A stretch of 64,000 nt of DNA, from contig NZ_JABBGA010000004.1 in assembly GCF_012927165.1 (NCBI RefSeq), positions 62,001 through 126,000 of the forward strand. The letters are read 5' to 3'. A program made the translations under genes and the position numbers. The notes below the pieces were generated by a model, which saw only the letters and a list, made by a program, of their open reading frames with translations, did not search any database and was not told the origin of the DNA. The stretch is from Zoogloea dura (GTDB lineage: Bacteria; Pseudomonadota; Gammaproteobacteria; Burkholderiales; Rhodocyclaceae). Below are positions 651-62,992 of the stretch, piece by piece. Each line of letters opens with the position of its first letter. Within the stretch, counting starts at the first letter, position 1.

Positions 651-674
651 TTTGTCTTCTTCAATCCGTCCGGA

Positions 675-3073: not shown

Positions 3074-3127
3074 GTCAAACCTTCCGCCCGAATGGCCGGG
3101 CTAGCGGAAAACGCGGGGGGAGAAAGA

Positions 3128-3451
3128 TCAGACGGTGAAGCTCTCGCCGCAACCGCACTCACCCTTCACGTTCGGATTATTGAACTTGAACCCTTCGTTG
3201 AGCCCCTCGCGGACAAAATCCAGCTCGGTGCCGTCCATGTAGGGCAGGCTCTTGGGGTCGATCAGCACCTTCAGGCCGTGACTTTCGAAGACAACATCGT
3301 CAGCCGTGACCTCGTCGGCAAACTCCAGCTTGTAAGCCATGCCGGAGCACCCCGAGGTACGGACGCCGAGACGGATCCCGACGCCCTTGCCGCGCTTGGC
3401 GAGGAAGTTGCCGATGTGGTTTGCAGCCTTCTCGGACAGGGTCACTGCCAT
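3128..3451 (-). CDS. iscA: IscA, A-type iron-sulfur carrier
   Basis: A 107-residue A-type carrier with the three invariant cysteines: one in [13 protein letters not shown] and two in [11 protein letters not shown] at the C-terminus. It transfers or supplies iron/[4Fe-4S] clusters after assembly on IscU. Length matches E. coli IscA (107). It lies 14 nt downstream of iscU, in the standard position. Confidence 0.97.
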
Positions 3452-3465
3452 GATCGTGTTTCCTT

Positions 3466-3849
3466 TCAGCCGTTGTGCTTCTTTTTATAGTCTTCCACAG
3501 CCGCCTTGATGGCGTCCTCGGCCAGGATCGAGCAGTGGATCTTGACCGGCGGCAGGGCCAGTTCCTCGGCGATGGCGGTGTTCTTGATCTCCAGGGCCTG
3601 ATCGAGGGACTTGCCCTTGACCCACTCGGTGACCAGGGAGCTTGAGGCGATCGCGGAACCGCAGCCATAGGTCTTGAACTTGGCGTCCTCGATGATGCCG
3701 TCCTTGCCCACCTTGATCTGCAGCTTCATCACGTCGCCGCAGGCCGGTGCGCCGACCATGCCGGTCCCGACGTCCTCGTCTTCCTTGCCGAAGGCGCCGA
3801 CGTTGCGGGGGTTTTCGTAGTGGTCCAGGACCTTTTCGCTATATGCCAT
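3466..3849 (-). CDS. iscU: IscU, Fe-S cluster scaffold
   Basis: A 127-residue scaffold protein. The three ligand cysteines are visible in [25 protein letters not shown] and [13 protein letters not shown], and the conserved Asp follows the first. The HscA-recognition motif LPPVK precedes the third cysteine. It receives sulfur from IscS and assembles [2Fe-2S] clusters. It lies 13 nt downstream of iscS and is followed by iscA. Length is the same as in E. coli (128). Confidence 0.98.
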
Positions 3850-7737: not shown

Positions 7738-8460
7738 CTACTTCTTTTCAAAGGCCGTCAACATGCCGCGCAGTATGTTGATTTCGTCCTTCTCCAGACG
7801 GATCCGCCCATACAGACGGCGCAGACGCGGCCACAGGCGCTTGGAGTTGCTTGGATGAAAGAAGCCGCTGGCGGTGATGGCCCGATCCAGATGGGTATAG
7901 AAGCCCTCCACCTCCTCGAACGTCGCAGGCTCGAACTCGACCCCTGGCGTCTTGCCGGGGTCGAGGGCCGCCATCCTCAATTCGTAGGCCATCACCTGCA
8001 CAGCGGCTCCGAGATTGAGCGACGAGTAGGCCTCGCTGACAGGAATCTTGACCGGCATATGGCACAGGGTGACCTCCTCATTGGAGAGGCCGACCGTCTC
8101 GTTGCCGAACACCAGCGCCACATCGCCGCGCCCGGCAACCGACACCAGCTCGCCAGCGGCCTCCCGCGCCCACTTCATGGGCACGGCCAGCTCACGCTTG
8201 CGGGCAGTCATGGCAGCCGCAAAGACAGTCCCTTCAAGCGCCTCGGCGAGGGTCTCAACAACCCGCGCATTCTCGAGGATGTCATCGGCGCCCGCCGCCC
8301 TCGCGCTGGCCACGGGATCGGGGAAGGACTGCGGGGAAACGAGTACCAGATGCTTCAGGCCCATGGTTTTCATGGCCCTGGCCGCTGCGCCGATGTTACC
8401 GGGGTGACTGGTACGGGAAAGAACGACACGCACGCGCTCAAGCGCGCCATCGATGTTCAT
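7738..8460 (-). CDS. trmJ: tRNA (cytidine/uridine-2'-O)-methyltransferase TrmJ
   Basis: A SPOUT-fold methyltransferase that modifies position 32 of certain tRNAs. Conserved segments include VVLSRTSHPGNIGAAARAMKTMGL at the N-terminus, the SAM-binding knot residues ALVFGNETVGLSNEEV, and IPVSEAYSSLNLGAAVQVMAYEL. The start chosen is the ATG at 8460 (MNIDGALERVRVV), which gives 240 residues, the usual TrmJ length. The longer open frame to 8724 overlaps suhB on the other strand. It is divergent from suhB and precedes cysE. Confidence 0.93.
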   Translation of the reverse strand: MNIDGALERVRVVLSRTSHPGNIGAAARAMKTMGLKHLVLVSPQSFPDPVASARAAGADDILENARVVETLAEALEGTVFAAAMTARKRELAVPMKWAREAAGELVSVAGRGDVALVFGNETVGLSNEEVTLCHMPVKIPVSEAYSSLNLGAAVQVMAYELRMAALDPGKTPGVEFEPATFEEVEGFYTHLDRAITASGFFHPSNSKRLWPRLRRLYGRIRLEKDEINILRGMLTAFEKK

Positions 8461-8498
8461 ATTAAAATATCGGGTTTTCCGAATTAGAGTCGACCGGT

Positions 8499-8512
8499 GG
8501 GCAATTGTGCCC
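8499..8512. repeat. Perfect inverted repeat in the trmJ-suhB divergent region
   Basis: GGGCA-ATTG-TGCCC lies in the 78-nt gap between the trmJ and suhB start codons. It is 27 nt upstream of the suhB ATG. It could be an operator or a leader hairpin; nothing else supports a function. Confidence 0.4.
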
Positions 8513-8538
8513 GGGCCGGCAGACCTTGCCAGACACCC

Positions 8539-9345
8539 ATGCATCCCACTCTGAACATTGCTGTCAAGGCCGCGCGCCGCGCCGCCACCGTCATCAACCG
8601 GGCCTCCCTCGACCTGGATCAAATCCGCGTCGAGGTCAAAAGCCCCAATGATTTTGTCTCGGATGTCGATCGGGCCGCTGAAGATGCGATCATCCAGGTG
8701 CTCCGTGAAGCCTATCCGAGCCACAGCATTTTAGCAGAAGAGTCCGGCGAGACCGGCCCGGAGGCCGAGACCGAGTACCAGTGGATCATCGACCCCCTGG
8801 ACGGAACCACCAACTTCCTGCACGGCTTTCCCCAGTACGCCATCTCCATCGCCCTGGCCCGCCGCGGCGTGGTTGAGCAGGCGGTGGTCTACGATCCGAA
8901 CCGCAACGAGATGTTCACCGCCTCCAAGGGCGGCGGCGCCTTCCTCAACGACAGGCGCATCCGCGTCTCCAAGCGCCTCAAGCTGCAGGATGCGCTGGTT
9001 GGCACAGGCTTCCCCTATCGCCAGTTCAAGAACGTGGACACCTACCTGGCCATCTTCAAGGAGCTCACCCAGAAGACCGCTGGCCTGCGCCGCCCGGGCG
9101 CCGCCTCCCTCGACCTGGCCTATGTGGCCGCCGGCCGCTTGGACGCCTTCTGGGAATTCGGCCTGTCCCCGTGGGACATGGCTGCCGGCAGCCTGCTCAT
9201 CAGCGAAGCGGGCGGTCTGGTCAGCGACCTGGCGGGCGAATCCACCTACCTGACCTCGGGCAACGTGGTTGCCGGCACCCCCAAGGTCTTCCCCCAGCTG
9301 CTGCAACTCATCCAGGGCCACTGCGGCGACAAGCTGCCGGCCTGA
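8539..9345 (+). CDS. suhB: Inositol-1-monophosphatase SuhB
   Basis: A 268-residue Mg2+-dependent phosphatase of the IMPase family. Metal and substrate motifs are intact: AEESGE (Glu ligand, about residue 70), [17 protein letters not shown] (about residue 85) and [17 protein letters not shown] (about residue 215). In E. coli, SuhB also binds the NusA/rRNA antitermination complex, and nusA is in this window. The start chosen is the ATG at 8539 ([13 protein letters not shown]). The 14 upstream codons do not resemble the family. Confidence 0.95.
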
Positions 9346-9349
9346 CGAC

Positions 9350-9961
9350 GTGCGCCATCTGCTGATCCGGATCATGGCCGCCTGCCTGGCCCTGGCCAGC
9401 GCATCAGCCTGGGCGGGCACCGTACTGGTCTGGGGAGACAGCCTGTCCGCCGGCTACGGGCTACGCCCGGAGCAGGCCTGGCCCTCCCTCCTCGCCAAGC
9501 GCCTGGAAGGCGGCAAGCCCTCGTACAAGGTGGTCAATGCCAGCATCAGCGGCGAGACCACCGCAGGCGGGCTGAGCCGGCTGCCCGCAGCCCTGCGGAC
9601 CCACAAACCGTCGGTCGTGGTGATCGAACTGGGAGCCAATGACGGCCTGCGCGGCCTGCCGCCAAAGGCCATGGCCGCCAATCTGCAGTCCATGATCGAC
9701 ACCATCGGCAAGAGTGGAGCACGGGTATTGCTGGTAGGCATGCGCATGCCTCCCAACTACGGCCCGGCCTACACAGCTTCATTCGAGGCCGCCTACCGGG
9801 ATCTCGCAAAGTCCAACAAGATCCGCCTGGTGCCCTTCATGATGGAAGGCTTTGCCGACCAGCGCGGAATGTTCCAACAGGACGGCATCCACCCTGTGGC
9901 TGACGCCCAGCCCCTCATCCTAGACACCATCTGGCGGGAACTCGCCCCCCTGCTGCGCTGA
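9350..9961 (+). CDS. TesA-like SGNH arylesterase/lysophospholipase, secreted
   Basis: A 203-residue SGNH hydrolase. The chosen GTG at 9350 follows the suhB stop by 4 nt and gives a clear signal peptide, MRHLLIRIMAACLALASASAWA, cleaved before GTVLV. Catalytic blocks are present: GDSLSAGYG (Ser, block I), GANDGLRG (block III) and DGIHP (Asp/His, block V). It probably acts in the periplasm on short acyl esters or lysophospholipids, as E. coli TesA does. An ATG at 9374 is an alternative start with a shorter signal. Confidence 0.88.
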   Translation: MRHLLIRIMAACLALASASAWAGTVLVWGDSLSAGYGLRPEQAWPSLLAKRLEGGKPSYKVVNASISGETTAGGLSRLPAALRTHKPSVVVIELGANDGLRGLPPKAMAANLQSMIDTIGKSGARVLLVGMRMPPNYGPAYTASFEAAYRDLAKSNKIRLVPFMMEGFADQRGMFQQDGIHPVADAQPLILDTIWRELAPLLR

Positions 9962-9963
9962 CA

Positions 9964-9977
9964 CCTGCTTCCGCAGG
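9964..9977. terminator. Small hairpin between convergent genes
   Basis: CCTGC-TTCC-GCAGG lies in the 18-nt gap between the esterase and methyltransferase stop codons. The stem is only 5 bp and there is no T-run, so termination is doubtful. Confidence 0.25.
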
Positions 9978-9979
9978 GA

Positions 9980-10528
9980 TCACGGCAGCCGCAGTGAGGG
10001 GGTGTGGCCCTTCACTGCGCAGATGCGCTGCACCACGGCCGGGCGCGGCTCGGCCACCTCGCCCTGCTCATAGGCCAGTACGGTGCAGGCATCGGCCACC
10101 CTCTCGAACAGCTCGTGCGAACGCAACAGGAAGTCCGGATTGCTGGGCTTGCCCAGGCGCTCGTTGCCTTCCATGAAGGTTTCGTAGATCAGCACACCGC
10201 CGTGATTCAAGGCCGTCAACAGCAGCGGAAGACGCGGTCGGAACAGGTAGTTGGTCACCACGATACCGTCAAAATGCCGCCCTCCGTAAGGCCAGGCGCC
10301 CTCCTCCAGGTCTGCCTCGGTAACCTGCAGATGCGGCACACCCGCCAGCAACTCCAGCGCCACGGCATCCCGATCCACCGCCTCGACCCGGAATCCGCGG
10401 GCGGCCAGCCACCGCGCGTGGCGGCCGCTGCCGCAGGCAAAGTCGAGCACTTCGCCGCCTGCCGGGATCAGGCCGGCAAAACGGGTAACCCAGGGTGACG
10501 GCACCAGCGAGGCCGTGTGTCGCATCAT
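9980..10528 (-). CDS. SAM-dependent class I methyltransferase
   Basis: A 182-residue Rossmann-fold methyltransferase resembling the TehB/Tam-like group. Motif I is EVLDFACGSGRHARWLAARG, motif II ends in VEAVDRDAVAL, and a motif IV-like segment is FDGIVVTNYLFRP. The substrate cannot be told from sequence. It stands alone on the minus strand, convergent with the esterase gene and 173 nt downstream of the pnp stop codon. A terminator separates it from pnp. Confidence 0.82.
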   Translation of the reverse strand: MMRHTASLVPSPWVTRFAGLIPAGGEVLDFACGSGRHARWLAARGFRVEAVDRDAVALELLAGVPHLQVTEADLEEGAWPYGGRHFDGIVVTNYLFRPRLPLLLTALNHGGVLIYETFMEGNERLGKPSNPDFLLRSHELFERVADACTVLAYEQGEVAEPRPAVVQRICAVKGHTPSLRLP

Positions 10529-10651
10529 CGATCAAACCCTCCAGCAGGCAGACAAGTGATTGGCCGGCACTCCCCACGAGCGCGGCACCGCATTTCTGAT
10601 TACGTCGCCCCATGGCAGTTCCCTGCCAGTCGAGCCACGATCCGGACGCCG

Positions 10652-10678
10652 AAAAAAAACGGGCGCCGCAGCGCCCGT
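10652..10678 (-). terminator. Rho-independent terminator after pnp
   Basis: On the minus strand, an 8-bp stem ACGGGCGC/GCGCCCGT with a 4-nt loop is followed by eight T (10652-10659). It begins 23 nt after the pnp stop and would end the rimP-pnp operon. Confidence 0.9.
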
Positions 10679-10701
10679 TCTTCTAAACAGACAACCCGCT
10701 C

Positions 10702-12801
10702 TTACTGGGCAGCCTGTTCGTTCAGCAGCGCCTTCATGGACAGACGGACACGACCCTTTTCGTCGGTCTCGAGCACCTTGACGCGAACGACCTGACCCTC
10801 CTTGAGGTAGTCGGACACGGCATTGACGCGCTCGTTGGCGATCTGAGACACGTGCAGCAGGCCATCACGGCCCGGCAGGATGTTGATGATCGCACCGAAA
10901 TCGAGGATACGGACCACCGGACCTTCGTAAACCCTGCCCACTTCGACTTCGGCGGTGATTTCCTCGATGCGCTTCTTTGCAACCTGGGCGCCTTCGGAGC
11001 TCACGGAGGAGATGGTCACATTGCCGTCGTCGGTGATCTCGATGATGGTGCCGGTCTCTTCCTGCAGACCACGAATCACCGCGCCGCCCTTGCCGATCAC
11101 GTCACGGATCTTTTCCGGATTGATCTTCAGGGTGATCATGCGCGGAGCGAAATCGGAGACCTCGCCACGGGCTTCGCCCAGGGCCGACTTCATCAGGCCG
11201 AGGATGTGCATGCGGCCTTCCTTGGCCTGGGCCAGGGCAACCTGCATGATCTCCTTGGTGATGCCGAGGATCTTGATGTCCATCTGCAGCGCCGTCACGC
11301 CATTCTCGGTACCCGCCACCTTGAAGTCCATGTCGCCGAGGTGATCTTCGTCACCCAGGATGTCGGTCAGCACGGCGAAGCGGCCGCCGTCCTTGATCAA
11401 ACCCATGGCAATGCCTGCCACCGGGGCAGACAGGGGCACACCGGCGTCCATCATGGCCAGGGAACCACCACAGACCGAAGCCATGGAGCTGGAACCGTTG
11501 GATTCAGTGATCTCGGACACCACGCGAACGGTGTAGGAGAACTCTTCCTTGCTCGGCAGCACGCCGGCCAGCGCACGCTTGGCAAGACGGCCGTGGCCGA
11601 TCTCGCGACGCTTCGGAGAGCCGAAACGACCGCACTCACCGGTGGAGAACGGCGGGAAGTTGTAATGCAGCATGAAGCGCTCGCGGTACTCGCCCGCCAC
11701 CGCATCGATGATCTGCTCGTCGCGGCCGGTGCCCAGGGTGGTCACCACGATGGCCTGGGTCTCACCACGGGTGAACAGCGCCGAGCCGTGGGCACGGGGC
11801 AGCACGCCGACACGGATATCGATCGGGCGCACGGTGCGGGTATCGCGACCGTCGATACGCAGCTCGCCACTCAGGATGCGGCCGCGCACCACCTTGGACT
11901 CCAGGTCGAAGATGATGTTGTTGACGGTGTTGGAATCGTATTCACGGCCTTCGGCGGCAAGGGCGGCATGCACCTCGTCACCAATGGCGGACAGGCGCTG
12001 GGAGCGCTCCTGCTTGGCGGTGATGCTGAAAGCCTCTTCAATCTTGGCCGCGGCGATCTCGGTCACGCGGGCGATCAGCGCCTCGTCCTTGGCCGGCGGC
12101 TGCCAGTTCCACTCCGGCTTGCCGGCCACTTCAACCAGTTCGTTGATGGCGTTGATGGCAGCCTGCATCTGGGTGTGGCCGAACACCACGCCACCGAGCA
12201 TCACGTCTTCGGGCAGCTCGAGGGCTTCGGACTCGACCATCAGCACGGCGGTCTCGGTACCCGCGACCACCAGATTCATCTTGCTGGTCTGCAGCTGGGT
12301 GGCCGTCGGGTTGAGGATGTATTCGCCATTCTCGAAACCGACGCGGCACGCGCCGATCGGGCCCGCAAAGGGGATGCCGGCGATGGCCAGGGCAGCGGAA
12401 GCACCGATCATGGCAGGGATGTCGGCATCGACTTCCGGGTTCAGGGACATGACCTGAACAATGACCTGGACTTCATTGTAGAAACCGTCCGGAAAAAGCG
12501 GGCGGATCGGACGGTCGATCAGGCGGGAAGTCAGGGTTTCCTTCTCGGTCGGGCGCCCTTCGCGCTTGAAGAAGCCACCCGGAATGCGACCGGCAGCGTA
12601 GAACTTTTCTACGTAATCAACGGTGAGCGGGAAGAAATCCTGGCCGGGCTTGGCGTTCTTGGCGGCCACCACGGTCGCCAGCACCACGGTATCGTCCATG
12701 TTGACGATCACGGCGCCATGAGCCTGGCGGGCAACCTCGCCGGTCTCCAGGGTCACGGTGTGGGAGCCGTAGGTAAAGGTTTTCTTGATAGCGGTAGGCA
12801 A
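10702..12801 (-). CDS. pnp: Polynucleotide phosphorylase
   Basis: A roughly 699-residue 3'-5' exoribonuclease and degradosome component. It has two RNase PH domains (about residues 10-230 and 320-540, with [22 protein letters not shown] in the first), a KH domain containing [20 protein letters not shown], and a C-terminal S1 domain ([16 protein letters not shown]). The frame is open from an ATG at 12816. The better start is the TTG at 12801 ([12 protein letters not shown]), because AAAGGA lies five bases upstream of it and family alignments begin there. It is the last gene of the operon, after rpsO. Confidence 0.95.
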
Positions 12802-52053: not shown

Positions 52054-52370
52054 TCAACTCTCCCGTAGCGATCGGAGCACTATGACAATACGCCACGACG
52101 GGCGGCAACCGGGACGAAGACCCGATGTGCCATCCCTCCTGGTGGCAGGCAATCCGGGCGACGGCCCCGGATGGGTGCGAGATACTACCGCATTGCAGCA
52201 AAAGCAGAACGGGAAGCGTGATTCTTCACCACCTGTATTGCCGTCCGATTGCTTACGATTACGCCCGGCACGACACTGGGGAGATTAGGACAGACCCAAC
52301 ACCGGAAATCGCGCCAGATCCTGCTCCAGCGGAACACCCAATACTCCAGAAACGACGACAACCCACGCGG
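52054..52370. other. Divergent intergenic region kup / GGDEF-EAL gene
   Basis: 317 nt that should contain two divergent promoters. A weak kup candidate is TTGCCG with TCATAG 17 nt away (minus strand), but the -10 match is poor. Frames open here lack ribosome-binding sites and resemble no protein. No riboswitch core was recognised. Confidence 0.45.
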
Positions 52371-55300
52371 ATGCCCCTTTCCACCTCGACCCTTCGCCAT
52401 CTTGCCGGTGTCGCCGCGGCCTATACCATCTGTGGCCTGCTTGCACTGCATATCGCCATTCCGCCTGGCTATGTCTCACCGCTCTATCCCGCTGCGGGTA
52501 TTGCCCTGGCTGCCGTGCTCAGCTTCGGCAGACAAATCTGGCCGGCAATCATGGCTGGAGCGATCCTCACCAACATCGGTGCCGTGCTACAGACCGGACT
52601 GGAAGGCTGGGCGCAGGTCACCCCCCTTATCGTCGGCATCGGCGCCGTCCTGCAGGCCTTCGCCGGCGCCGCGCTGGCCCAGCGCTGGAGCCGCTTTCCC
52701 CTCGACACGGCCGGTCCCATCCTGCGCTTCCTGTTTCTGGTCGGGCCCGTGAGCTGCCTGATCGGCGCCAGCTTCGGCACCAGCGCCTTGGTCATATCCG
52801 GCAGCCTGCCCCTCTCCGAGGCCGCCTTCACCTGGTGGAACTGGTGGGCCGGAGACGCCGTCGGGATTCTCATCGCCACCCCCCTCGCCCTGGCCTTCAT
52901 TGGCCAGCCCCGTCAGGACTGGGCTCCCCGCCGGCTCAGCATCGCCCTGCCGATGCTGGTCGCACTGCTCATTCTTGCCGCACTCGAGATCCAGGTTGCA
53001 CGCTGGGAGCAGGAGCGCCTGCAGACCCGTTTCGAGCGTGATGCCCACTACCTGTCCAGCATGCTGCGCAAGCGCTTCGAGGACTACACCGGCGTTCTCC
53101 AGGCGACCGAACGCGTCATGGTCGCGGCACCTGGCATGGATCAGCAGGGCTTCCAGGAATTTGCCGCTCCCTGGCTGGCCCGCTTCGACGGTCTCCAGGC
53201 CATCGGCTGGATTCCCCATGTATCCGCCAGCGGACGTGCAGCCTTTGAAGCCGCAGCCCGAGCCTCGGCAAGCACACCAGATTTCATGATCCGCGACCGC
53301 GATCGACAGAACATCCTGCACCCGGCCGCGGCGCGCTCCGACTACTATCCGATCCGTTTCATCGCGCCACTGGAGAGCAACCGGCGGGCCCTGGGCGTCA
53401 ACGTCCTGTCGGTCCCGAATGCCGTGGAGGCGGTCCATCGCAGCCTGGGAAGCGGCAAGGCTGCCAGCACCCGGGCCTTTGAGCTGACCCAGGAAACCGA
53501 GGGGAAGCTGGGCGTGGTGGTCTATCAGCGCACCACAGGCCCCATCACGGGCTCCACCTCCCAGACCGGCCCGTCAGGCCCACCTCAGGGCATCGCCTTC
53601 GTGGCACTGCGCATCGAGGATGCGGTGCAAAGCGTATTGCGACACTACCCCATGCCCGGCATGGTCTATTGCCTGACCGAGCGCGCCCCCGATGCCCCCC
53701 TGGGACACCGGCTGGCCGGCCACGAAAACTGCCCTGCAACAGACGAGACAGCCCCGGGCGGCATCGAACCCTGGGTGGACAGCTTTGACTTCGCCGGACG
53801 CCGCTGGAGCATCAGCTTCTCGGTCACCCCCGGCTACAGCACCTTGTACCGCGGCTGGGAGGCCTGGATCCTGCTGGCCATCGGCCTGCTCAGCACCGGC
53901 ATGCTCGGGGCCTTCCTGCTCTCCTCCACCGGGCGCGCCCGACGCATCGAGGAGATGGTTCAGCAACGCACCCAGGAGCTGGCCGATGCCACCCGCCGGC
54001 TGCGCACCCAGCAGGCCATGCTGACTCACGCCGAGCGCATCGCCCGCCTGGGAAGCTGGGAAGTGGACCCAGTCAGCGAACGGGGCCACGGCTCCGCCGA
54101 ATTGTTCACCATCCTCGGCCTGCCCTACCGCGAGAGCCTCTCCCTCACCGATCTCAAGAACGCCGCCCACCCCGACGACAGGATCACGCTTGAAGAGGCC
54201 TTCGAGCAGATGAAGCACGGCCAGGCCGCCGCCAGCCTCGACATCCGCGTGCCCCTGGGCGACGGGGCACTCCCGGAACGGATGGTTCACTTCACGATAG
54301 AAGCCGGCGACCGCAGCGACGGCGACAAGCCCCTGCGCGGCACCGCCCAGGACGTCACCGCCAGCCGGGCAGCAGAGGCTCATATCCACTACCTGGCCCA
54401 CTACGACATGCTCACCGGGCTGCCCAACCGCAGCCTGTGGGCCAGCCGGGCCGAGCAGGCCCTGGCCATCGCCCGGCGCAATCACCTGCGCATGGGCGTG
54501 CTCTTCCTTGATCTGGACAACTTCAAGAAGATCAACGACACCCTCGGCCACCCGGTCGGCGACCGCCTTCTCGCCGCCGCGGCCCAGCGCCTCGCCCTGT
54601 GCCTGCGCGAGGAAGATGTGCTGGCGCGACTTGGCGGTGACGAGTTCGTGGTGCTGCTGCCGCAGATCCATACGGGCGATGACGCGGCCATCGTCGCCCG
54701 CAAACTCATCGGTAGCCTGACCCGCCCCTTCGACATCGACGGGCAGGAGCTGAGCACCTCCACCAGCATCGGCATCGCCCTGTATCCGGCCAACGGCGCC
54801 GACGTGGATATTCTGCTCAAGCACGCCGACACCGCCATGTACGACGCCAAGAGCGCCGGGCGCAACGACTTCCGCTTCTTCACGCCGGACATGAACAACC
54901 GGGCCTACGCTCGCCTGATGCTCGAGAACGCCCTCCGCCACGCCCTCGAACGCGAGGAGCTGGAGCTCGACTACCAACCCCAGTGGGCCATGCCGGGGCA
55001 GCGCCTGATCGGCGTCGAGGCCCTGGTGCGCTGGAACCACCCGGAACGCGGGCGCATCTCGCCGGCCGAGTTCATTCCCCTGGCCGAAGAGACCGGCCTC
55101 ATCCAGAGCATCGGTGACTGGGTCCTCCACGAAGCCTGTCGCCAGCAGGCCGCCTGGCAGGCCGCCGGGCTTCCACCCCTGACCATTGCCGTGAACATCT
55201 CGGCGCTGCAGTTCCGCCGTGCGGACTTTGCCGGGCACGTCCGCCAGGTCTTTGCCGATTCCGGCGTGTCGCCCAGCCACTTCGAGCTGGAGATCACCGA

Positions 55301-55691
55301 AAGCGCGCTGATGCAGCCGAGTGTCGAGACCGAGGCTCAGTTCGCGAGCCTGCGCAAGCTGGGACTCGGGCTGGCGCTCGACGACTTCGGCACCGGCTAC
55401 TCCAGCCTGTCCTATCTCAAGCGCCTGCCCCTCACCCGGCTGAAGATCGACCGCTCCTTCGTCCGCGACCTGCCGGGCGACCCGGAAGATGCAGCGATCG
55501 CCACGGCGACCCTGTCGATCGCCCGGGACCTGGGCCTCGAAGTGGTTGCCGAGGGTGTCGAGACCGAGGCCCAGCGGGATTTCCTGCTCGAACGCCAGTG
55601 CGCGGTGATGCAGGGCTACCTGTTCTCCCGCCCCCTGCCGGCCACCGCCATCACCGAACTGCTGGCCAGCCAGGCGCACGCACCGGCCTGA
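52371..55691 (+). CDS. MASE1-CHASE-PAS-GGDEF-EAL cyclic-di-GMP protein
   Basis: A 1106-residue membrane protein from the ATG at 52371 (MPLSTSTLRHLAG). Order: MASE1 membrane sensor (about 1-210), CHASE periplasmic sensor (about 220-420), another membrane helix (WILLAIGLLSTGMLGAFLL), a coiled segment, a PAS domain (about 555-660), GGDEF (about 670-830, intact LARLGGDEFVVLLP) and EAL (about 840-1100, intact GVEALVRWNHPE). Both catalytic motifs are complete, so it could make or degrade c-di-GMP, with a ligand sensed outside the cell choosing the balance. It converges with the LuxR-type regulator gene (15-nt gap). Confidence 0.92.
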   Translation: MPLSTSTLRHLAGVAAAYTICGLLALHIAIPPGYVSPLYPAAGIALAAVLSFGRQIWPAIMAGAILTNIGAVLQTGLEGWAQVTPLIVGIGAVLQAFAGAALAQRWSRFPLDTAGPILRFLFLVGPVSCLIGASFGTSALVISGSLPLSEAAFTWWNWWAGDAVGILIATPLALAFIGQPRQDWAPRRLSIALPMLVALLILAALEIQVARWEQERLQTRFERDAHYLSSMLRKRFEDYTGVLQATERVMVAAPGMDQQGFQEFAAPWLARFDGLQAIGWIPHVSASGRAAFEAAARASASTPDFMIRDRDRQNILHPAAARSDYYPIRFIAPLESNRRALGVNVLSVPNAVEAVHRSLGSGKAASTRAFELTQETEGKLGVVVYQRTTGPITGSTSQTGPSGPPQGIAFVALRIEDAVQSVLRHYPMPGMVYCLTERAPDAPLGHRLAGHENCPATDETAPGGIEPWVDSFDFAGRRWSISFSVTPGYSTLYRGWEAWILLAIGLLSTGMLGAFLLSSTGRARRIEEMVQQRTQELADATRRLRTQQAMLTHAERIARLGSWEVDPVSERGHGSAELFTILGLPYRESLSLTDLKNAAHPDDRITLEEAFEQMKHGQAAASLDIRVPLGDGALPERMVHFTIEAGDRSDGDKPLRGTAQDVTASRAAEAHIHYLAHYDMLTGLPNRSLWASRAEQALAIARRNHLRMGVLFLDLDNFKKINDTLGHPVGDRLLAAAAQRLALCLREEDVLARLGGDEFVVLLPQIHTGDDAAIVARKLIGSLTRPFDIDGQELSTSTSIGIALYPANGADVDILLKHADTAMYDAKSAGRNDFRFFTPDMNNRAYARLMLENALRHALEREELELDYQPQWAMPGQRLIGVEALVRWNHPERGRISPAEFIPLAEETGLIQSIGDWVLHEACRQQAAWQAAGLPPLTIAVNISALQFRRADFAGHVRQVFADSGVSPSHFELEITESALMQPSVETEAQFASLRKLGLGLALDDFGTGYSSLSYLKRLPLTRLKIDRSFVRDLPGDPEDAAIATATLSIARDLGLEVVAEGVETEAQRDFLLERQCAVMQGYLFSRPLPATAITELLASQAHAPA

Positions 55692-55706: not shown

Positions 55707-56651
55707 TCAGGCCGGTGCCTCGCCCCCGCCCACCCGCAGGCGCGCCAGCGCCACCGCGGCGGCGGCGGTGCGGTTCTCAACCCCCAACTTGGCGAACACA
55801 TGCTCGAGGTGCTTGTTAACAGTGCGCGGGCTGGACCCGAGGATCTCGCCGATGTCGGGGCTGGTCTTGCCCTTGATCACCCAGTAGAGCACCTCGGCCT
55901 CCCGGGCCGTCAGGCGGAAGGCCGCCATCAGCCCATCCACCATGGCGGCGTCCGACTCCTCGCGCAGCAACAGCAGCCACTCGTCGTCGCCGGTACGCTC
56001 ATGCAGGTTGAAGATGAGCCGCCGGGCGGCCTGGTTGAGATGCAGGGGCGGAAACTCCCGCCCCTCGCGGCGGGCCCGCGCCGACTCATGCGCCCACGCC
56101 ATCACCGCCGCCGGCGCGCTGTCCTCATGGCCGGGGAAGAAATCCTGCATCAGCTTGCGGGCCAGGGGCGTCTGCCACACCACCCGCCCGCTGTCGGGCC
56201 GCATCGCCAGGGTCGCCTGGCCCACCGCGTCGAGGGCCGTGCGCGCCTGCTTCATCAGGCGGGCGCTCTGCATGTGGGCGGCAATGCGGGCCAGGACCTC
56301 CTGAGGCCGGATCGGCTTGGTCACGTAGTCGGCACCGCCGGCATCGAAGGCGGCCACCACGTGCTCGGTCTCGGTCAAGCCGGTCATGAAGACGATCGGG
56401 ATGTGCCGGGTGGCGAAGTCGGCCTTCATCCGCCGCGCCACCTCGAAGCCGTCCATGCCCGGCATCATCGCGTCGAGCAGGATCACGTCCGGCAGGCTGT
56501 GGCGGGCGCGCTGCAGCGCGCTCTCGCCGTTGGTCGCCACCAGCACCGTATAGCCCGCCTCGTCCAGCGCGTCGTGGAGCACCGAGAGGTTCTCGGGAAT
56601 GTCGTCCACGATCAGCACCAGATCGGAGTTGAGCCGGTCGAATTCAGGCAT
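55707..56651 (-). CDS. Response regulator with LuxR-type HTH
   Basis: A 314-codon frame from the ATG at 56651 (MPEFDRLNSDLVLIVDD). The receiver has the phospho-Asp in VILLDAMMPGMDG and the Lys in YVTKPIRP. A middle region of about 110 residues (LDAVGQATLAMRPDSGRVVW) resembles the PAS-like module seen before some LuxR domains. The C-terminal HTH is LTAREAEVLYWVIKGKTSPDIGEIL with RTVNKHLEHVFAKLGVENR. It overlaps the end of the NCS1-kinase gene by 8 nt (ATGCCTGA), so it is the obvious output partner of that kinase. Target genes are unknown. Confidence 0.9.
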   Translation of the reverse strand: MPEFDRLNSDLVLIVDDIPENLSVLHDALDEAGYTVLVATNGESALQRARHSLPDVILLDAMMPGMDGFEVARRMKADFATRHIPIVFMTGLTETEHVVAAFDAGGADYVTKPIRPQEVLARIAAHMQSARLMKQARTALDAVGQATLAMRPDSGRVVWQTPLARKLMQDFFPGHEDSAPAAVMAWAHESARARREGREFPPLHLNQAARRLIFNLHERTGDDEWLLLLREESDAAMVDGLMAAFRLTAREAEVLYWVIKGKTSPDIGEILGSSPRTVNKHLEHVFAKLGVENRTAAAAVALARLRVGGGEAPA

Positions 56652-59600
56652 GGGCCGCTTTCTCCAGCAAAGGGGGGATCGCCTCAAGGCGGAAATTGCG
56701 GGTCAGGCCGCGCACCTCGGCCACGAAGCGTGCATGGGCCGGATCTGCCGCCTCAATCTCGTCAAGGCAGGCCAGAATGCCCTTCACGTAGCCCAGATCG
56801 ACCTGCCGGCCAAGCGCCGCAAGGTGTTCGGCCGGTGGGTAGACCAGCCCCTCCGGCAGCACCGCGGGCGGCGGCGGCTGATCGGCCTCCAGCCAGTCGA
56901 GGGCCAGGCGGCGGCCGGTCCAGTCGAGCAGTTCGGCCACCTGCACCGGCTTGAGGAAGAAGTCCCCGGCGCCGATGCCGAGCTCGTTGTCATCGGAATG
57001 GATGCCCCGCTCGTAGGCATTGGCCGAGATGATGGCCACCGGCAGGTCCGGGCGCCCTCCCACGCGGATCCGCCGCACCGTCTCCCAGCCATCCATGCCC
57101 GGCATGGCCAGATCCATGAAGACCAGATCCGGATCGAAATCCGGCAGCAGCGCCAGGCACTCGGGCCCCGAGGCCGCCTGGGCCAGCACGAAGCCGAGCG
57201 GCTCGAGCAGGGTGATCAGGAGCTCCCGGTCCACCCGCTCGTTGTCCACGATCAGGATGCGCCGCCGCTCGCCGCGGTAGCCCGCCGGATGGCGCCGCGG
57301 CAGCTCCCGCGCGGCCGCCGCCCCCTGCACCTGAGGCAGGAACAGGCGCACCCGGAAGGTGCTGCCGGCTCCCGGCTCGCTGCGCAGGGTCAACTCGCCG
57401 CCCATCACGTCGGCGAACATGCGGCTGATGGTCAGGCCGAGGCCCGCCCCGCCCGCCCCCTGGGCCGAGCTGCCGCGGGAGAAGGGCTCGAAGATGCGCT
57501 CGACTTCCTCCCTGGAAATCCCCGGCCCGCTGTCCTCGACCTCGAAGGTGGCCATCTCCATGCGGTAGGCGACCCGCAGGGCGATATGGCCGCGGGCGGT
57601 GAACTTGACCGCATTGCCCAGCAGATTGATCAGGATCTGGCGCATGCGCTTTTCGTCGGCCCGCACGAAGGCCGGCAGCTCGCCGCAGGGTTCGTAGCGG
57701 AAGGCCAGCCCCTTGTTGCGGGCCTGCAGTTCGAACATGCCGACGATCTGCTGCAGGAAATCGCGGAAATCCAGCGCCTTCACGTCGAGCGCCAGCTTGC
57801 CTCCCTCGATGCGGGCGATATCCAGGGTGCCCTCGATCACCGACAGCAGATGATCGCCGCTGCGCCGGATCACGTTGATGGCCTGGCGCCGGTGGGGCGG
57901 AATCGAGTCGTCGCCATCCAGGATCTGGGCATAGCCGAGGATGCTGTTGAGGGGCGTGCGCAGCTCGTGGCTGATCGCCGTGATGTAGCGGCTCTTGGCC
58001 TGGTTGGCCAGCTCCGCCGCCTGCTTGGCCCGCTGCAGTTGCTCGTCGGTGCGCCGGTGGGACTCGATCTCGCGCATCAGCAGATGAGTCTGGCGATTGG
58101 ACTCCTCCTGGGCCACCAGGCGGCTCTTGTGGGTCAGCACCAGCCACCACACCACCAGTCCGGCCAGCAACAGCAAGGCCGCATAGCCCTTCAGGAAGGC
58201 CAGTTGCAGGGCCTGGGCGAAAGCCTCGGCGCTGTCGCCCAGCAGGTTGAGGCCGAGGTGGTAGAGCAGCCACACCAGCAGGGCCAGCCCAGGCGCGATG
58301 AAGCCCATCAACAACAGATAGTGGCCCAGCCCGCTCTCCAGGAAGGGCGTCGCCGACGCCGGCAGGACCCGGCGCAGGGCCGCCGACCACTGGGCCGACA
58401 GGCGGGCCTGGGGCTTGCATACATCGTTGCAGCGGGCGTCCAGCGAACAGCACAGGGAGCAGATGTCTCCCTGGTAGGCCGGGCAGCGGGCCAGGTCGTC
58501 GGATTCATAGTCGCGCTCGCAGATCACGCAGCGGCGCGTTCCCGCCACCGCCGGCCCGGGCTGGCGGGCCAGGTAGTAGCGCCCGCCGGTGGCCCAGGCG
58601 ATCAGCGGTGAGGCGACGAAGGCGGTGACCAGGGCAATCAGCGCCGAGAAGGCCTGTGCCTCCGCCCCGAACAGGCCCAGCCAGGCCAGCACCGACAGCA
58701 CCGAGGCAATCCCCATCGCCCCCACCCCCACCGGATTCACATCGTAGAGGTGGGCGCGCTTGAACTCGATGCCCGGCGGCGACAGTCCCAGGGGCTTGTT
58801 GATCACCAGGTCGGCCACCACCGCCATCATCCAGGCGATGGCCACGTTGGCATACAGGCCGAGCACCTGGCCGAGGGCCTGGAACACGTCCAGCTCCATC
58901 AGGACCAGGGCGATCACGGTGTTGAAGACCACCCACACCACCCGCCCAGGGTGGCTATGGGTCAGCCGGGCAAAGAAGTTCGACCACGCCAGGGATCCGG
59001 CATAGGCGTTGGTGACGTTGATCTTGAGCTGGGACACCACCACGAACAGGGCCGTTGCCGCCACCGCCCAGTGCAGGTCGGGAAAGACGTATTCGTAGGC
59101 GGCCAGGTACATCTGGTTGGGGTCCACCGCCCGCTCGGCCGGCACCGAATTGCTGATCGCCAGATAGGCCAGCAGCGCGCCGCCAAGCATCTTGACCACC
59201 CCCAGCACCACCCAGCCCGGCCCCCCCAGGAGCACCCCGGCCCACCAGCGGCGGGCGTTGGCCGGGGTCTTCTCGGGCATGAAGCGCAGGTAGTCGGCCT
59301 GCTCCCCCATCTGGGTGATCAGGGCGATGCCCACGGTCAGCGCGGCCCCGAAGGCCGGCAGATGGAAGCCGCCGCCCCCTCCGCTCTCGCCCGGATAGCC
59401 GGTGATGCCGGTGAGCACATCGGGCCGCTCCATGTACACGAACACATAGGGCACCACCAGCATCATCAGCCAGAGAGGCTGGGTCAGGGTCTGCAGGCGG
59501 CTGATCGCGGTGACCCCGTGGGTGACCAGCGGAATCACCACCACCGCGCAGATCAGGTAGCCCCAGGCCGGCGGAATGTCGAAGGCGAGATCCAGCGCAT

Positions 59601-60051
59601 AAGCCATGATCGCCGCCTCGAGGGCAAAAAAGATGAAGGTGAAGGACGCGTAGATCAGCGAGGTCAGGGTGGAGCCGATGTAGCCGAAGCCCGCGCCGCG
59701 GGTCAGCAAGTCCATGTCCACCCCGTAGCGGGCGGCATAGATGCTCACCGGCAGGCCGGCCAGGAAGATGATCAGACCCGTGGCGAGGATTGCCCAGAAC
59801 GCGTTGGCGAAACCGTAGCCGACCAGCAGGGTCGCCCCCACCGCCTCCAGCACCAGGAAGGACGCCACCCCGAAGGCGGTGTTGGCCACCCGCAGTTCGG
59901 ACCAACGCCGGAAGCTTCGCGGGGTGAAGCGCAGGGCGTAGTCTTCGATGGTCTCGCGGGCGACCCAGGTGTTGTAGTCGCGACGGACCTTGACCACCCG
60001 CTGGACGGCATCCTGCGGGTCTTCGGCCGAAGCTGGCGCCGGGTCCGTCAC
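56644..60051 (-). CDS. NCS1-type permease fused to hybrid histidine kinase/receiver
   Basis: A 1135-residue fusion. Residues 35-500 are a nucleobase/hydantoin/cytosine-permease (NCS1) domain with about twelve helices (for example LEAVGATLLVGYGFANAFWA and GFGYIGSTLTSLIYASFTFI). Residues 508-545 hold eight cysteines (C-x2-C-x11-C-x7-C-x2-CC-x5-C-x3-C; 58417-58530). Two more helices follow (about 578-598 and 620-640), then HisKA with His695 (AISHELRTPLNSILGY), HATPase_c (790-905; INLLGNAVKFTARG, GAGLGLTISRM) and a receiver with Asp980 (LVFMDLAMPGMDG) and Lys1034. The GTG start overlaps the pilR stop (GTGA). It probably senses a nucleobase or related nitrogen compound through transport. No DNA-binding domain is attached; the overlapping LuxR gene is the likely output. 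Confidence 0.9.
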   Translation of the reverse strand: MTDPAPASAEDPQDAVQRVVKVRRDYNTWVARETIEDYALRFTPRSFRRWSELRVANTAFGVASFLVLEAVGATLLVGYGFANAFWAILATGLIIFLAGLPVSIYAARYGVDMDLLTRGAGFGYIGSTLTSLIYASFTFIFFALEAAIMAYALDLAFDIPPAWGYLICAVVVIPLVTHGVTAISRLQTLTQPLWLMMLVVPYVFVYMERPDVLTGITGYPGESGGGGGFHLPAFGAALTVGIALITQMGEQADYLRFMPEKTPANARRWWAGVLLGGPGWVVLGVVKMLGGALLAYLAISNSVPAERAVDPNQMYLAAYEYVFPDLHWAVAATALFVVVSQLKINVTNAYAGSLAWSNFFARLTHSHPGRVVWVVFNTVIALVLMELDVFQALGQVLGLYANVAIAWMMAVVADLVINKPLGLSPPGIEFKRAHLYDVNPVGVGAMGIASVLSVLAWLGLFGAEAQAFSALIALVTAFVASPLIAWATGGRYYLARQPGPAVAGTRRCVICERDYESDDLARCPAYQGDICSLCCSLDARCNDVCKPQARLSAQWSAALRRVLPASATPFLESGLGHYLLLMGFIAPGLALLVWLLYHLGLNLLGDSAEAFAQALQLAFLKGYAALLLLAGLVVWWLVLTHKSRLVAQEESNRQTHLLMREIESHRRTDEQLQRAKQAAELANQAKSRYITAISHELRTPLNSILGYAQILDGDDSIPPHRRQAINVIRRSGDHLLSVIEGTLDIARIEGGKLALDVKALDFRDFLQQIVGMFELQARNKGLAFRYEPCGELPAFVRADEKRMRQILINLLGNAVKFTARGHIALRVAYRMEMATFEVEDSGPGISREEVERIFEPFSRGSSAQGAGGAGLGLTISRMFADVMGGELTLRSEPGAGSTFRVRLFLPQVQGAAAARELPRRHPAGYRGERRRILIVDNERVDRELLITLLEPLGFVLAQAASGPECLALLPDFDPDLVFMDLAMPGMDGWETVRRIRVGGRPDLPVAIISANAYERGIHSDDNELGIGAGDFFLKPVQVAELLDWTGRRLALDWLEADQPPPPAVLPEGLVYPPAEHLAALGRQVDLGYVKGILACLDEIEAADPAHARFVAEVRGLTRNFRLEAIPPLLEKAAHA

Positions 60052-61421
60052 TCCTTCATGCCCAGGCGCTCGAGGCGGTAGCGCAGGGAGCGGAAGGTCA
60101 CCCCCAGGGACCGGGCCGCGGCGGTGCGGTTGCCGCCGGATTTTTCGAGGGCGTCCTCGATGGCATGCCGCTCCACCTTGTCCAGGTAATCCTGCAGCGC
60201 GGCCCCGCCGGGCTCTGCCGGCGCCGCCGGGTGGGCTTCACCCACGTCCGACGGATCGAGCAGGAGATCCTCCGCGTGGATCAGCTCGCCGCTGGACAAG
60301 GCCAGTGCACGCTCGAGGACGTTCTCCAGCTCGCGTACGTTGCCCGGAAAGGAATAGGCCTTGAGTGCATCCACGGCATCCTGGCTGAGCTTCGCCACCG
60401 GCTGCCCCGACGACTCGGCGAGCCGGTCGAGCAGGATCTCCGCGAGACCGGGAATATCCTCGATGCGCTCGCGCAGGGTGGGCATGCGCAGCTCGATGAC
60501 GTTGAGCCGGTAGAACAAGTCCTGCCGGAAGCGCGAGGCCTCGACCATGGCCTTCAGGTTCTGGTGGGTGGCGCTGAGGATGCGCACATCGACAGCCGTT
60601 TCCGCCGTGTCGCCGAGGCGCCGGAACTTCTTCTCCTGGATCGCGCGCAGCAGCTTGACCTGCATGGGCAGCGGCAGGTCGCCCACCTCGTCGAGGAACA
60701 GGGTGCCGCCGTGGGCGGCCTGGAAAAAACCCTCCCGGTCGCTGTCGGCTCCGGTGAACGCGCCCTTGCGGGCCCCGAAGAACTCGCTCTCCATGAGGTT
60801 CTCGGGAATCGCACCGCAGTTGACCGCCACGAAGGGCGCCGCCGCACGCGGCCCCAGCTCGTGGATCATGCGCGCCGCCCGCTCCTTGCCGCTGCCCGAC
60901 TCACCCGAGATGAACACCGGCGCCTGGCTGCGCGCCAGCTTCTCGATCAGCGAGCGCACCTGCACCATCGCCGGCGAATCGCCGATCAGGCTGGAGCTGT
61001 CCTTGCGCCCGGCGTCCTCCTCCTTGGGGCGCACCGAGAACACGGACTTCACCAGCGCGCGGAGCTGGTCGATCGACACCGGCTTGGCCAGGTAATCGAA
61101 GGCTCCGGCCTTGAGGGCCGTCACCGCGTTGTCCATGCTGCCAAAGGCAGTGATGACCGCCACCGGCAGGTCGCGGATGTTCTCGGAGATGTAGCGCACC
61201 AGCTCCAGGCCGTCCCCGTCGGGCAGGCGCATGTCGGTCAGGCACAGGCGATAGCGCCGCCCACCCAGCAACTGGCGGGCCTCGGCCAGGGTCGCCGCCC
61301 CGTCACTGGCCAGGCCGAGGCGCAGCAGGGTGAGTTCGAGCAACTCCCGGATATCGTCTTCGTCGTCGACGATCAGCACATCGGGGCCGCCGGAGCGGGC
61401 CCTTCTTTCGGTCTGGGTCAT
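60048..61421 (-). CDS. pilR: PilR, sigma-54 response regulator
   Basis: A 457-residue NtrC-type activator. The receiver has [25 protein letters not shown] and DYLAKPVS. The AAA+ domain has Walker [16 protein letters not shown], the sigma-54 loop [13 protein letters not shown] and Walker [13 protein letters not shown]. The C-terminal Fis-type HTH is [26 protein letters not shown]. The start chosen is the ATG at 61421 ([11 protein letters not shown]), overlapping the pilS stop by ATGA. Its usual target is the sigma-54 promoter of the pilin gene. No pilA is in this window. Confidence 0.92.
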
Positions 61422-62992
61422 GGCTTGGCTCGTCCGGTAATGCGAAAACGGGCGCCACCTCCATCGGCCGGGCACAGTTCGAGGCTGGCGCCATTGGCCT
61501 CCGCGAGTTCGCGGGCGATATACAGCCCGAGGCCCGTTCCCTTGGAATGGGTGGTGAAGAAAGGTTCGAATATCTGGCCCCGCAAGGCCTCGGCAATCCC
61601 CGGACCATCGTCGGCCACTTCCAGGATCACCCGGCCGTCATCCAGGGCGCTGGCCTGGATGCGCACGGCGCCCTGCCCACCGCTGCTGTGGCGGCGCGCA
61701 TTGCCGACCAGGTTCCAGAGGATCTGGCGCAGGTGGGTGCGATCCATGGCAAAGCTCAGAGTGGGTGGAACCTGGCTGACCACCACCCCCTCCACGGCCG
61801 CGCCCCCGGCCAGCTGGAACTCGTCCAGGAACTCGTCGATGAAAGCCTCCAGCGGCAGGGCCTCCGGCAGCGCCTCGTCGCGTCGCCCCAGCGCCAGTAC
61901 GTCACCGACCAGCCGGTCGATGCGCTGGGCGTTGTTGCCGATGATGCGGATCAGACGGGCCTGCATCTCGCTGCGCTTCTCATCGGCCAGCAGCTCGGCG
62001 GCCTGGGACACGGAGGCCAGCGGATTGCGGATCTCGTGAGCGATGCTGGCGGTCAGGCGCCCCAGGGCAGCCAGCTTGACCTGCTGGATCTGGCGGTGGA
62101 TGCGGTCAAAATCCTCGAGGTAGATCAGGGTGTCATCGGCCTCGCCAGCGGGCAGGAAACGGACCAGCAGCATCTTGCCGCTGCCTTCCGCACGCATGCT
62201 GTGGGCCGACACACCCAGCGCATCCTTGCGGGCCAGCTCGCGGGCCAGAGCCGGCGCGCAGTCGTGCAGCCGCTCGCCCTCCCGCAGGGGCGTGCCGAGC
62301 AGCGCGATGGCCTGCGGATTGAACTGATGCACCTCGGCGCCCTCGCCCACCACCAGCACACCGTCCTGCATGTCCTGGATGATCTGCCGGTTGAGCCGCA
62401 GCTGGTTGGCCAGGTCGGCACCCCGCCTGCGCGCCAGGTCTTCATTGGCGAGCGCCCGCTGGGCCAGCAGGCGGGCCACCTGGGCGATCGCAAAAAAGCC
62501 GATGCAGGTGATCCCGACGGTGACGAAGTCGGCCGCATCCCGCCCGGCCAGCCAGCGATAGGCGTTCTCCAGCAGCACCGCGACGGTGGCATAGGCCGCA
62601 TAGAAGAGCACCATGCGCCCTTGTCCCACCAGCCCGGCGCCGGCCAGCGCCACCAGCAGCAGGATGGGGATTCCGCTGCGATAGCCGCCGCTGGCCCACA
62701 TGATGATCGTCAGCAGGGTGATGTCCACCACCACCTGCAGGCTGACCAGGCGATCCAGGCCGAGCAGGCGCTCGGCATCGCGGAAACCGAGGATCAGGAT
62801 GGCCGCCATGTAGGCGAAGGAGGCGGCGACGAAGACCACCGGGGAATCCGCCCCCAGCTGCAGCAGGCGGCCGGCCACCAGGAACACGCCGGCCAGGATC
62901 AGCCGGAACAGGTTGAGGTAGCGCAGGGGTTCCGCACGTTGCTCACCGCCGGACAACTGCATGTCCAGGGCGGCGGCGAGCTCGGATCTCAT
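61418..62992 (-). CDS. pilS: PilS, sensor histidine kinase
   Basis: A 524-residue kinase. The N-terminal part (about 20-190) has six membrane helices (LNLFRLILAGVFLVAGRLL opens them). A PAS-like region is LNRQIIQDMQDGVLVV. The phospho-His is in LGRLTASIAHEIRNPLASV and the ATPase motifs are NLVGNARRHS and TGLGLYIAREL. This layout is typical of PilS. It overlaps both the upstream small gene (62989-62992) and pilR (61418-61421). Confidence 0.9.
   Translation of the reverse strand: MRSELAAALDMQLSGGEQRAEPLRYLNLFRLILAGVFLVAGRLLQLGADSPVVFVAASFAYMAAILILGFRDAERLLGLDRLVSLQVVVDITLLTIIMWASGGYRSGIPILLLVALAGAGLVGQGRMVLFYAAYATVAVLLENAYRWLAGRDAADFVTVGITCIGFFAIAQVARLLAQRALANEDLARRRGADLANQLRLNRQIIQDMQDGVLVVGEGAEVHQFNPQAIALLGTPLREGERLHDCAPALARELARKDALGVSAHSMRAEGSGKMLLVRFLPAGEADDTLIYLEDFDRIHRQIQQVKLAALGRLTASIAHEIRNPLASVSQAAELLADEKRSEMQARLIRIIGNNAQRIDRLVGDVLALGRRDEALPEALPLEAFIDEFLDEFQLAGGAAVEGVVVSQVPPTLSFAMDRTHLRQILWNLVGNARRHSSGGQGAVRIQASALDDGRVILEVADDGPGIAEALRGQIFEPFFTTHSKGTGLGLYIARELAEANGASLELCPADGGGARFRITGRAKP

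Follow-up and report, generated by a model that had tools for sequence, protein, structure and literature searches.

A 64 000 nt stretch of the Zoogloea dura genome (hereafter 'the window') encodes a hybrid histidine kinase whose input domain is, judged by sequence profiles and a structure model, a distant relative of the NCS1 permeases. The gene overlaps that of a LuxR-type response regulator, and relatives of this kinase in other genomes are found beside urt, urease (ure), formamidase (fmd) or amidase genes. From the comparisons described below we consider it probable that the kinase is a receptor for urea or short-chain amides, which acts on urt, ure and fmd genes via the overlapping regulator.

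The input domain and its fusion to a hybrid kinase

An earlier reading of the window from its letters alone (the original prediction) had assigned the input domain to the NCS1 class. Pfam gave no match of PF02133 (NCS1) to the window kinase at E ≤ 10, which leaves it below the membership cut-off (0 of 1 kinases in its own genome), and in an alignment of 56 sequences that contains the window kinase not one matched PF02133 at E ≤ 1; the few other matches were weak and to unrelated families. A PDB sequence search returned nothing for the input domain. For this domain together with the eight-cysteine module that follows it (Cys8 module) there was no Pfam match, and none among the best 25 of 151 NCBIfam matches. 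Although unseen by Pfam, the NCS1 assignment was borne out by structure and profile comparison. An AlphaFold2 model was built on the 56-sequence alignment (pLDDT 77.1, pTM 0.76), and its best five PDB matches in Foldseek were all chains of CodB or Mhp1, with TM-scores on the target of 0.77–0.78 for CodB and 0.66–0.68 for Mhp1; SSS, Nramp and APC proteins, which have this superfold too, ranked behind them. Comparison by hhalign gave a probability of 97.0 (E 8.9e-11) against six NCS1 proteins, 98.6 (E 1.3e-15, 351 columns) when CodB and Mhp1 were added, indicating homology over most of the domain, and 99.9 (E 2.8e-31) with six free-standing relatives as the target. Significance was not reached with individual NCS1 proteins or with a profile of two (probability 0.1–12.4). 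The nearest free-standing relative (L197; 29% identity, E 7e-34) itself exceeds the Pfam NCS1 cut-off (36.4 versus 23.5 bits). Because of the Foldseek ranking, the profile–profile comparison and the Pfam match of this relative, the NCS1 label holds at a distance. An SSS origin was rejected, as a profile of 17 SSS proteins reached a hhalign probability of 9.5 and Pfam showed no SSF match; the contrast drawn in the original prediction with the SSS-type kinase CbrA stands. Free-standing NCS1-like permeases at four loci (L193, L198, L199 and L202), which are related to the kinase input domain and have Arg where the Na+-site Ser would be, lie beside hydantoinase/oxoprolinase-type genes, with a Pfam check for L198 only; L193 and L202 had no NCBIfam match at E ≤ 1e-10.

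The kinase frame contains no internal stop, and Pfam places HisKA with His695, HATPase_c and a receiver with Asp980 in it, both catalytic residues at the positions predicted. Transporter fold and kinase are combined in one chain, as in the class of transporter-derived receptor kinases. The original prediction had named one weak point of this fusion, an assembly error joining two genes at the permease/kinase junction. Such an error is ruled out because permease, cysteine module and kinase recur in one frame and in the same order in many genomes; the same build is present in well over a hundred sequences. A query composed of the permease and cysteine part matched 46 of 250 genomes of the window's order (Burkholderiales) at E ≤ 1e-3. 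Kinase carriers account for 43 of these, 42 at E ≤ 1.3e-168 and one, G164, with a partial copy (cysteine part alone, in a 644-aa frame), and the three remaining matches are free-standing permeases of ~450 aa with 24–25% identity. When 398 Pseudomonadota genomes were searched with the same query (phylum sample), 62 matched, 52 of them at E < 1e-150, and 39 of those 52 lie outside the order. Nearly all strong matches in both samples are held by open frames of ~1120–1420 aa, long enough for the kinase part; in the phylum sample one match (G276) contains two in-frame TGA codons and two places sit in shorter frames of 894–899 aa. The full-length protein gave long matches in 80 genome-contig loci, a few of them cut by contig ends. 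At least 500 plasmid records show one place covering at least 80% of the query, which is not a census, most of the listed matches being to the kinase domain; 580 matched stretches were likewise not counted as a census, since one search peptide comes from the receiver domain, which is widespread. Burkholderiales, Azospirillum, Rhizobiaceae and Methylobacterium are among the plasmid hosts named, and the records often label these kinases merely 'ATP-binding protein'. In the Z. dura genome the kinase is single-copy, and the closest contigs are named Zoogloea.

Two kinase copies occur in one 20-kb Curvibacter locus (L067, at 185–3625 and 7887–11447), with input domains 63% and 81% identical to that of the window. 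Two divergent kinases (L194 and L195) have frames of ~1400 aa with added length between input domain and kinase; they are not near urea genes, and their ligand may differ.

Gene neighbourhood and a candidate operator

We compared the genes beside the kinase in several sets of loci. In 10 annotated plasmid regions, the kinase diverges from urt genes in nine and from urease genes in one (Mitsuaria, with urt genes ~7 kb beyond the regulator), and a formamidase is annotated in six. The urt genes of the Burkholderia vietnamiensis plasmid are annotated as amide-type ABC genes, and on the Rhizobium sp. Q54 plasmid one small open reading frame (ORF) separates kinase and urt genes. The phylum sample contributed 39 loci from 38 genomes outside the window's order, namely all such places except two variants (L200 and L201). 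Here urt genes adjoin the kinase at 38 of the 39, of which a simple gene caller identified 35 and tblastn another 3; the contig of the remaining locus ends at the kinase. At least 25 loci have fmdA. Of the 80 genome-contig loci, ure genes were seen at 47 and urt genes at 17, at least one of the two at 52, and fmdA at none. Urease lies beside the kinase in many Burkholderiales loci, and aliphatic amidase genes are among the neighbours elsewhere. Kinase and urtA (39) or ureA (45) stand head-to-head within 1.2 kb in 84 of 130 loci, and a regulator like that of the window is present in 128 of 132 (tblastn E ≤ 1e-30). At the genome level, urease alpha exceeds its cut-off in 40 of 43 kinase carriers versus 59 of the 207 other genomes of the order (Fisher 1e-15); this p-value and the one given below for the palindrome overstate the significance, since the genomes compared share ancestry and do not count as independent cases. 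The variants L200 and L201 keep the permease and the cysteine module in a kinase of 885–894 aa without receiver. Both lie next to genes for a formamidase and an FmdB-like protein, with a gene for an AmiS/UreI channel in addition at L200, and the partner protein of L200 shows Response_reg and HATPase_c in Pfam.

The original prediction had listed purines, pyrimidines, hydantoins and urea-like compounds as ligands. Only the last group agrees with the neighbourhoods, and a purine or hydantoin ligand was set aside because the genes next to the kinase serve urea and amides (urt, ure, formamidase and aliphatic amidase). A cyclic ureide, a hydantoin or a nucleobase with urea or amides as breakdown products would fit the NCS1 fold and the hydantoinase/oxoprolinase-type genes that adjoin the nearest free-standing relatives in several genomes (by Pfam for L198 only). 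However, hydantoinase (hyu) genes were absent from the tally of 39 phylum loci and were seen ~2 kb beyond the regulator on one Shinella plasmid, and transmembrane helix 6 (TM6) contains a polar TQxGEQxD-like stretch in the kinases and, at that place, a Trp in five of the six free-standing relatives, so that we regard a ligand of this kind as highly improbable.

For the candidate operator, a motif was trained on 31 deduplicated, strictly intergenic urtA–kinase regions taken from the plasmid loci, three of them from Burkholderiales, and from the non-Burkholderiales loci of the phylum sample. The palindrome learned, ATACGtcAtaTgaCGTAT, had a log-likelihood (LL) of 324 versus 43–49 in shuffles. 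The held-out scan covered ~560 bp upstream of urtA in genomes of the order sample, none of these regions having been used in training; 100 regions, picked from 99 urtA-bearing genomes to fill the kinase-positive and kinase-negative groups, were scanned together with the window's own genome. At a score of at least 14 we observed the palindrome at 14 of 15 places where urtA adjoins the kinase, at 12 of 36 where a kinase-positive genome carries urtA away from the kinase (Fisher versus kinase-negative 8e-6), at 0 of 50 places in kinase-negative genomes and in 3 of 500 shuffled regions. Counted by genome, this corresponds to 26 of 39 kinase-positive versus 0 of 48 kinase-negative genomes.

In the window's own genome the kinase pair is unlinked to the urt–ure cluster, which is on a different contig (C9); the products UrtA, UrtB and urease alpha exceed their cut-offs, and the minor urt and ure genes were recognized by inspection. 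About 90 bp upstream of the urtA start stands the palindrome ATACGTCAGATTGCGTAG with a score of 24.7, compared with a mean best score of 8.0 and a maximum of 21.3 in 50 random 20-kb sequences. Because of this palindrome, which is the main evidence here, the unlinked kinase–regulator pair may well still serve the urea genes of the species.

On the ureA side (37 ureA–kinase intergenic regions) the strongest common element resembles the consensus of a sigma54 −24/−12 site. Elements of the form TGGCAYG...TGCA occur in many of these regions, and urease may there also be under nitrogen control. With the sigma54-like element masked, TaCGCCntanGGCGtA was found at a width of 16 bases (LL 80 versus 26). 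The palindrome might belong to another regulator, the kinase merely travelling with the urea genes; it is a putative operator recognized by its sequence, and in the ureA-side regions no palindrome is shared as strongly as the sigma54-like elements. Such ownership appears improbable in view of the restriction of palindromes scoring at least 14 upstream of urtA to kinase-positive genomes, unlinked cases included. The recognition helix of the regulator points the same way, with K at one residue in all 26 readable ureA-type loci (11 unreadable) versus N, D or T in all 24 readable urtA-type loci (7 unreadable), a split that is confounded by phylogeny; the regulator of the window has N.

Several observations weigh against a role of the kinase in urea and amide sensing. 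Of the genome-contig loci, 28 of 80 lack ure and urt in the stretch examined, several of them on short contigs. Two kinase-positive genomes (G061 and G068) have neither urease nor urt or ure genes beside the kinase, and a third (G091) yields only a urease fragment. At three loci (L031–L033) and in the window the kinase follows pilS/pilR-like genes, not urea genes. Cut-offs of 12, 14 and 16 were tried for the score instead of one set in advance, and with the lowest of them the palindrome is found at 28 of 51 kinase-positive versus 1 of 50 kinase-negative places; in kinase-positive genomes it is missing, at the cut-off of 14, from 24 of the 36 places with urtA away from the kinase, several of these being second urt copies, and one of the 50 random sequences supplied the score of 21.3. 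Only 12 of 37 ureA-side regions lie within two mismatches of TACGCC-N4-GGCGTA, as do 20 of 31 urtA-type regions, so that no sharp line divides the two forms of the operator. Furthermore, linkage is equally compatible with urea, with formamide or acetamide, and with a signal further downstream such as nitrogen status, and the residue mapping given below rests on distant alignments.

Putative ligand site, cysteine module and proposed signalling

We take S312 and T313 in transmembrane helix 8 (TM8) of Mhp1, equivalent to T278 and T279 of CodB, to provide the Na+-site hydroxyls, and W117, Q121, W220 and N318 of Mhp1 to be substrate residues. In two alignments onto Mhp1 and CodB, at roughly 15–19% identity, S312/T313 and T278/T279 map to K343/I344, and the Na+-site Ser/Thr are thus replaced. 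Of the substrate residues, W117 corresponds to F141, Q121 to E145, which is conserved in at least 90% of the sequences, and N318 to the invariant N348; W220 falls into a gap. Lys343 is invariant in 56 alignment rows, and all six free-standing relatives have Arg at this place. A canonical Na+ symporter is not supported by this mapping. The original prediction had considered that a permease without substrate- and sodium-site residues and without response to a ligand would speak against it; this applies in part, the Na+-site hydroxyls being absent. As aligned, the site would suit a small polar ligand without canonical sodium coupling. The basic residue at the Na+ site, which the free-standing relatives have as well, is on the alignments characteristic of the subfamily and does not prove that transport has been lost.

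The NCS1 domain might act as an active importer, with the flux of urea or amide instead of static binding driving the kinase. This would agree with the complete fold in the AlphaFold2 model and in Foldseek, with the free-standing relatives, whose TM8 has a basic residue at the equivalent position and which adjoin hydantoinase genes as transporters would, and with the precedent of CbrA, for which such a mechanism has been proposed (accessible part of PMC13022988). We nevertheless regard it as rather unlikely, given the absence of the Na+-site hydroxyls, the dedicated ABC importer encoded next door in most loci viewed, and the opposite precedent of Ks-Amt5, a transporter turned receptor with transport lost (accessible part of PMC5764959). 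A binding-only receptor is at least as likely as a transport-coupled sensor.

The cysteines of the window kinase are residues 508, 511, 523, 531, 534, 535, 541 and 545. Their spacing, C-x2-C-x11-C-x7-C-x2-C-C-x5-C-x3-C, is kept in 162 of 162 kinase frames, variants L200 and L201 included (frames picked by the TM6 motif and not deduplicated, the window being counted twice); one frame gives a longer match owing to an extra upstream Cys. A Cys8 profile run on 150 genomes found 15 places at E ≤ 3.3e-23, all in these kinases, and three further weak matches (E 0.0045–0.0086). The module is presumably cytosolic, because ~12 helices precede it and two follow. Zinc, iron–sulfur (Fe-S) or thiol chemistry are all candidates, which the sequence does not tell apart. 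The invariant spacing, and the confinement of the module to these kinases apart from the three weak matches, would also suit a sensor of nitrogen status, redox state or metal in which the cysteines (binding Zn or Fe-S, or acting as thiols; nickel would fit urease) are the main input and the permease is a scaffold. We consider this unlikely, because the polar residues of TM3, TM6 and TM8 in the permease domain are themselves strongly conserved and formamidase-only loci would presumably need no nickel. More tentatively than for urea/amide reception as such, we suggest a combination: an NCS1-fold receptor without sodium site might read external urea or formamide, and the Cys8 module might add an intracellular metal or redox input, giving an AND switch in several proteobacterial classes.

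For the proposed urea/amide receptor the course of signalling would be as follows. Urea or a short amide (formamide, perhaps acetamide) would occupy the substrate site of the NCS1 fold, where by alignment the Asn is kept, a Glu is present, the stacking Trp is absent and Lys343 replaces the Na+-site hydroxyls. A conformational change would pass via the Cys8 module, the two extra helices and a helical linker to HisKA and HATPase_c and alter the phosphorylation of His695. The gene overlap suggests that phosphate is then passed to the LuxR-type regulator. Since Pfam shows no HPt domain, the receiver fused to the kinase probably modulates its activity and does not act as a relay. In line with the held-out sequence test, the regulator would bind the TACGTCA-N2-TGACGTA-like palindrome upstream of urtA, and perhaps TACGCC-N4-GGCGTA beside ureA, and would turn on the import and hydrolysis of urea or amides. 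In Z. dura the unlinked pair would reach the urt–ure cluster on the other contig through the urtA palindrome.

The locus and related systems

The features of the locus are listed in Table 1. The likely regulator start, the ATG at 56651, lies inside the end of the kinase gene and overlaps it by 8 nt up to the kinase stop codon (56644–56646); together with Response_reg and GerE domains in Pfam this supports the overlapping LuxR-type partner of the original prediction. The GTG start of the kinase overlaps the stop of the upstream PilS/PilR-like gene by 4 nt, which raises the possibility of co-transcription with this type IV pilus regulator.

Table 1. Features of the kinase locus (positions in the window)
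Feature	Position	Strand	Basis or remark
Hybrid histidine kinase (NCS1-like permease / Cys8 module / 2 TM / HisKA-HATPase-receiver)	56644-60051	-	1135 aa, GTG start
NCS1-fold input domain, residues ~1-495	58567-60051	-	AlphaFold2 model, Foldseek, hhalign
Eight-cysteine module, residues 508-545	58417-58530	-	Conserved spacing C-x2-C-x11-C-x7-C-x2-C-C-x5-C-x3-C
Two extra hydrophobic helices, residues ~575-641	58129-58329	-	AlphaFold2 model, hydrophobic stretches near 578-596 and 611-640
HisKA, residues 685-751, with His695	57799-57999	-	Pfam
HATPase_c, residues 799-905	57337-57657	-	Pfam
Receiver (Response_reg), residues 932-1043, with Asp980	56923-57258	-	Pfam
LuxR-type response regulator (Response_reg + GerE)	55707-56651	-	Likely ATG start; mechanical ORF from TTG 56687
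PilS/PilR-like pair (6TM_PilS kinase, Sigma54_activat)	60048-62992	-	Pfam; directly upstream of the kinase gene
MASE1-CHASE-GGDEF-EAL protein	52125-55691	+	Convergent with the LuxR-type regulator gene

Transporter-linked kinases are known from other families. In CbrA a transporter domain is joined via a linker module to a histidine kinase for nutrient use (PMC13022988), and CrbS is likewise a transporter-linked SLC5/STAC histidine kinase (PMC9100948), as described in the accessible parts of both papers. The window kinase resembles them in this order of transporter domain, linker module and histidine kinase; theirs have an SSS/SLC5 input and a STAC linker, whereas here we find an NCS1 input, the Cys8 module and two extra helices. 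No Pfam match to a STAC linker was found in the window kinase (that Pfam holds a STAC model was not checked), and the Cys8 module takes that place. In Ks-Amt5 a transporter fold has been recruited as receptor and fused to a HisKA-type kinase; it differs, in the accessible part of the source, in its Amt fold, the lack of a linker module and ammonium as ligand (PMC5764959). By analogy of function the kinase would stand beside CbrA and Ks-Amt5, with a different transporter family and linker. With CodB and Mhp1 the input domain shares fold and profile homology, but it lies below Pfam recognition, has Lys/Ile for the Na+-site Ser/Thr and is fused to a kinase.

The fmd and urt uptake systems would be likely targets of the kinase. 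The fmdCABDEF cluster of Methylophilus is reported, in a review accessible in part, to be induced by formamide and urea; the part concerned names a putative positive regulator and no transporter-like kinase (PMC10781810). In Dechloromonas aromatica kinase and receiver genes are listed before urtA (PMC2907700), and in Ectopseudomonas guguanensis G3 histidine kinase and LuxR genes lie by the urtABCDE operon (PMC13296017). By their size and place alone these genes perhaps belong to the same family; the accessible parts of both papers list the kinase genes without domain analysis or function. Literature whose coverage left out most subscription papers yielded neither an NCS1-type kinase nor a urea/amide sensor kinase for urt.

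The induction of fmd-type systems by formamide and urea has been reported, and the literature searched, as far as it was accessible, names no substrate sensor for it. If our reading is true, the receptor found in 52 of the 398 sampled Pseudomonadota genomes would supply such a sensor. It would also extend the conversion of transporters into receptors to another transporter family, and would offer a ready urea/amide biosensor with a candidate operator.

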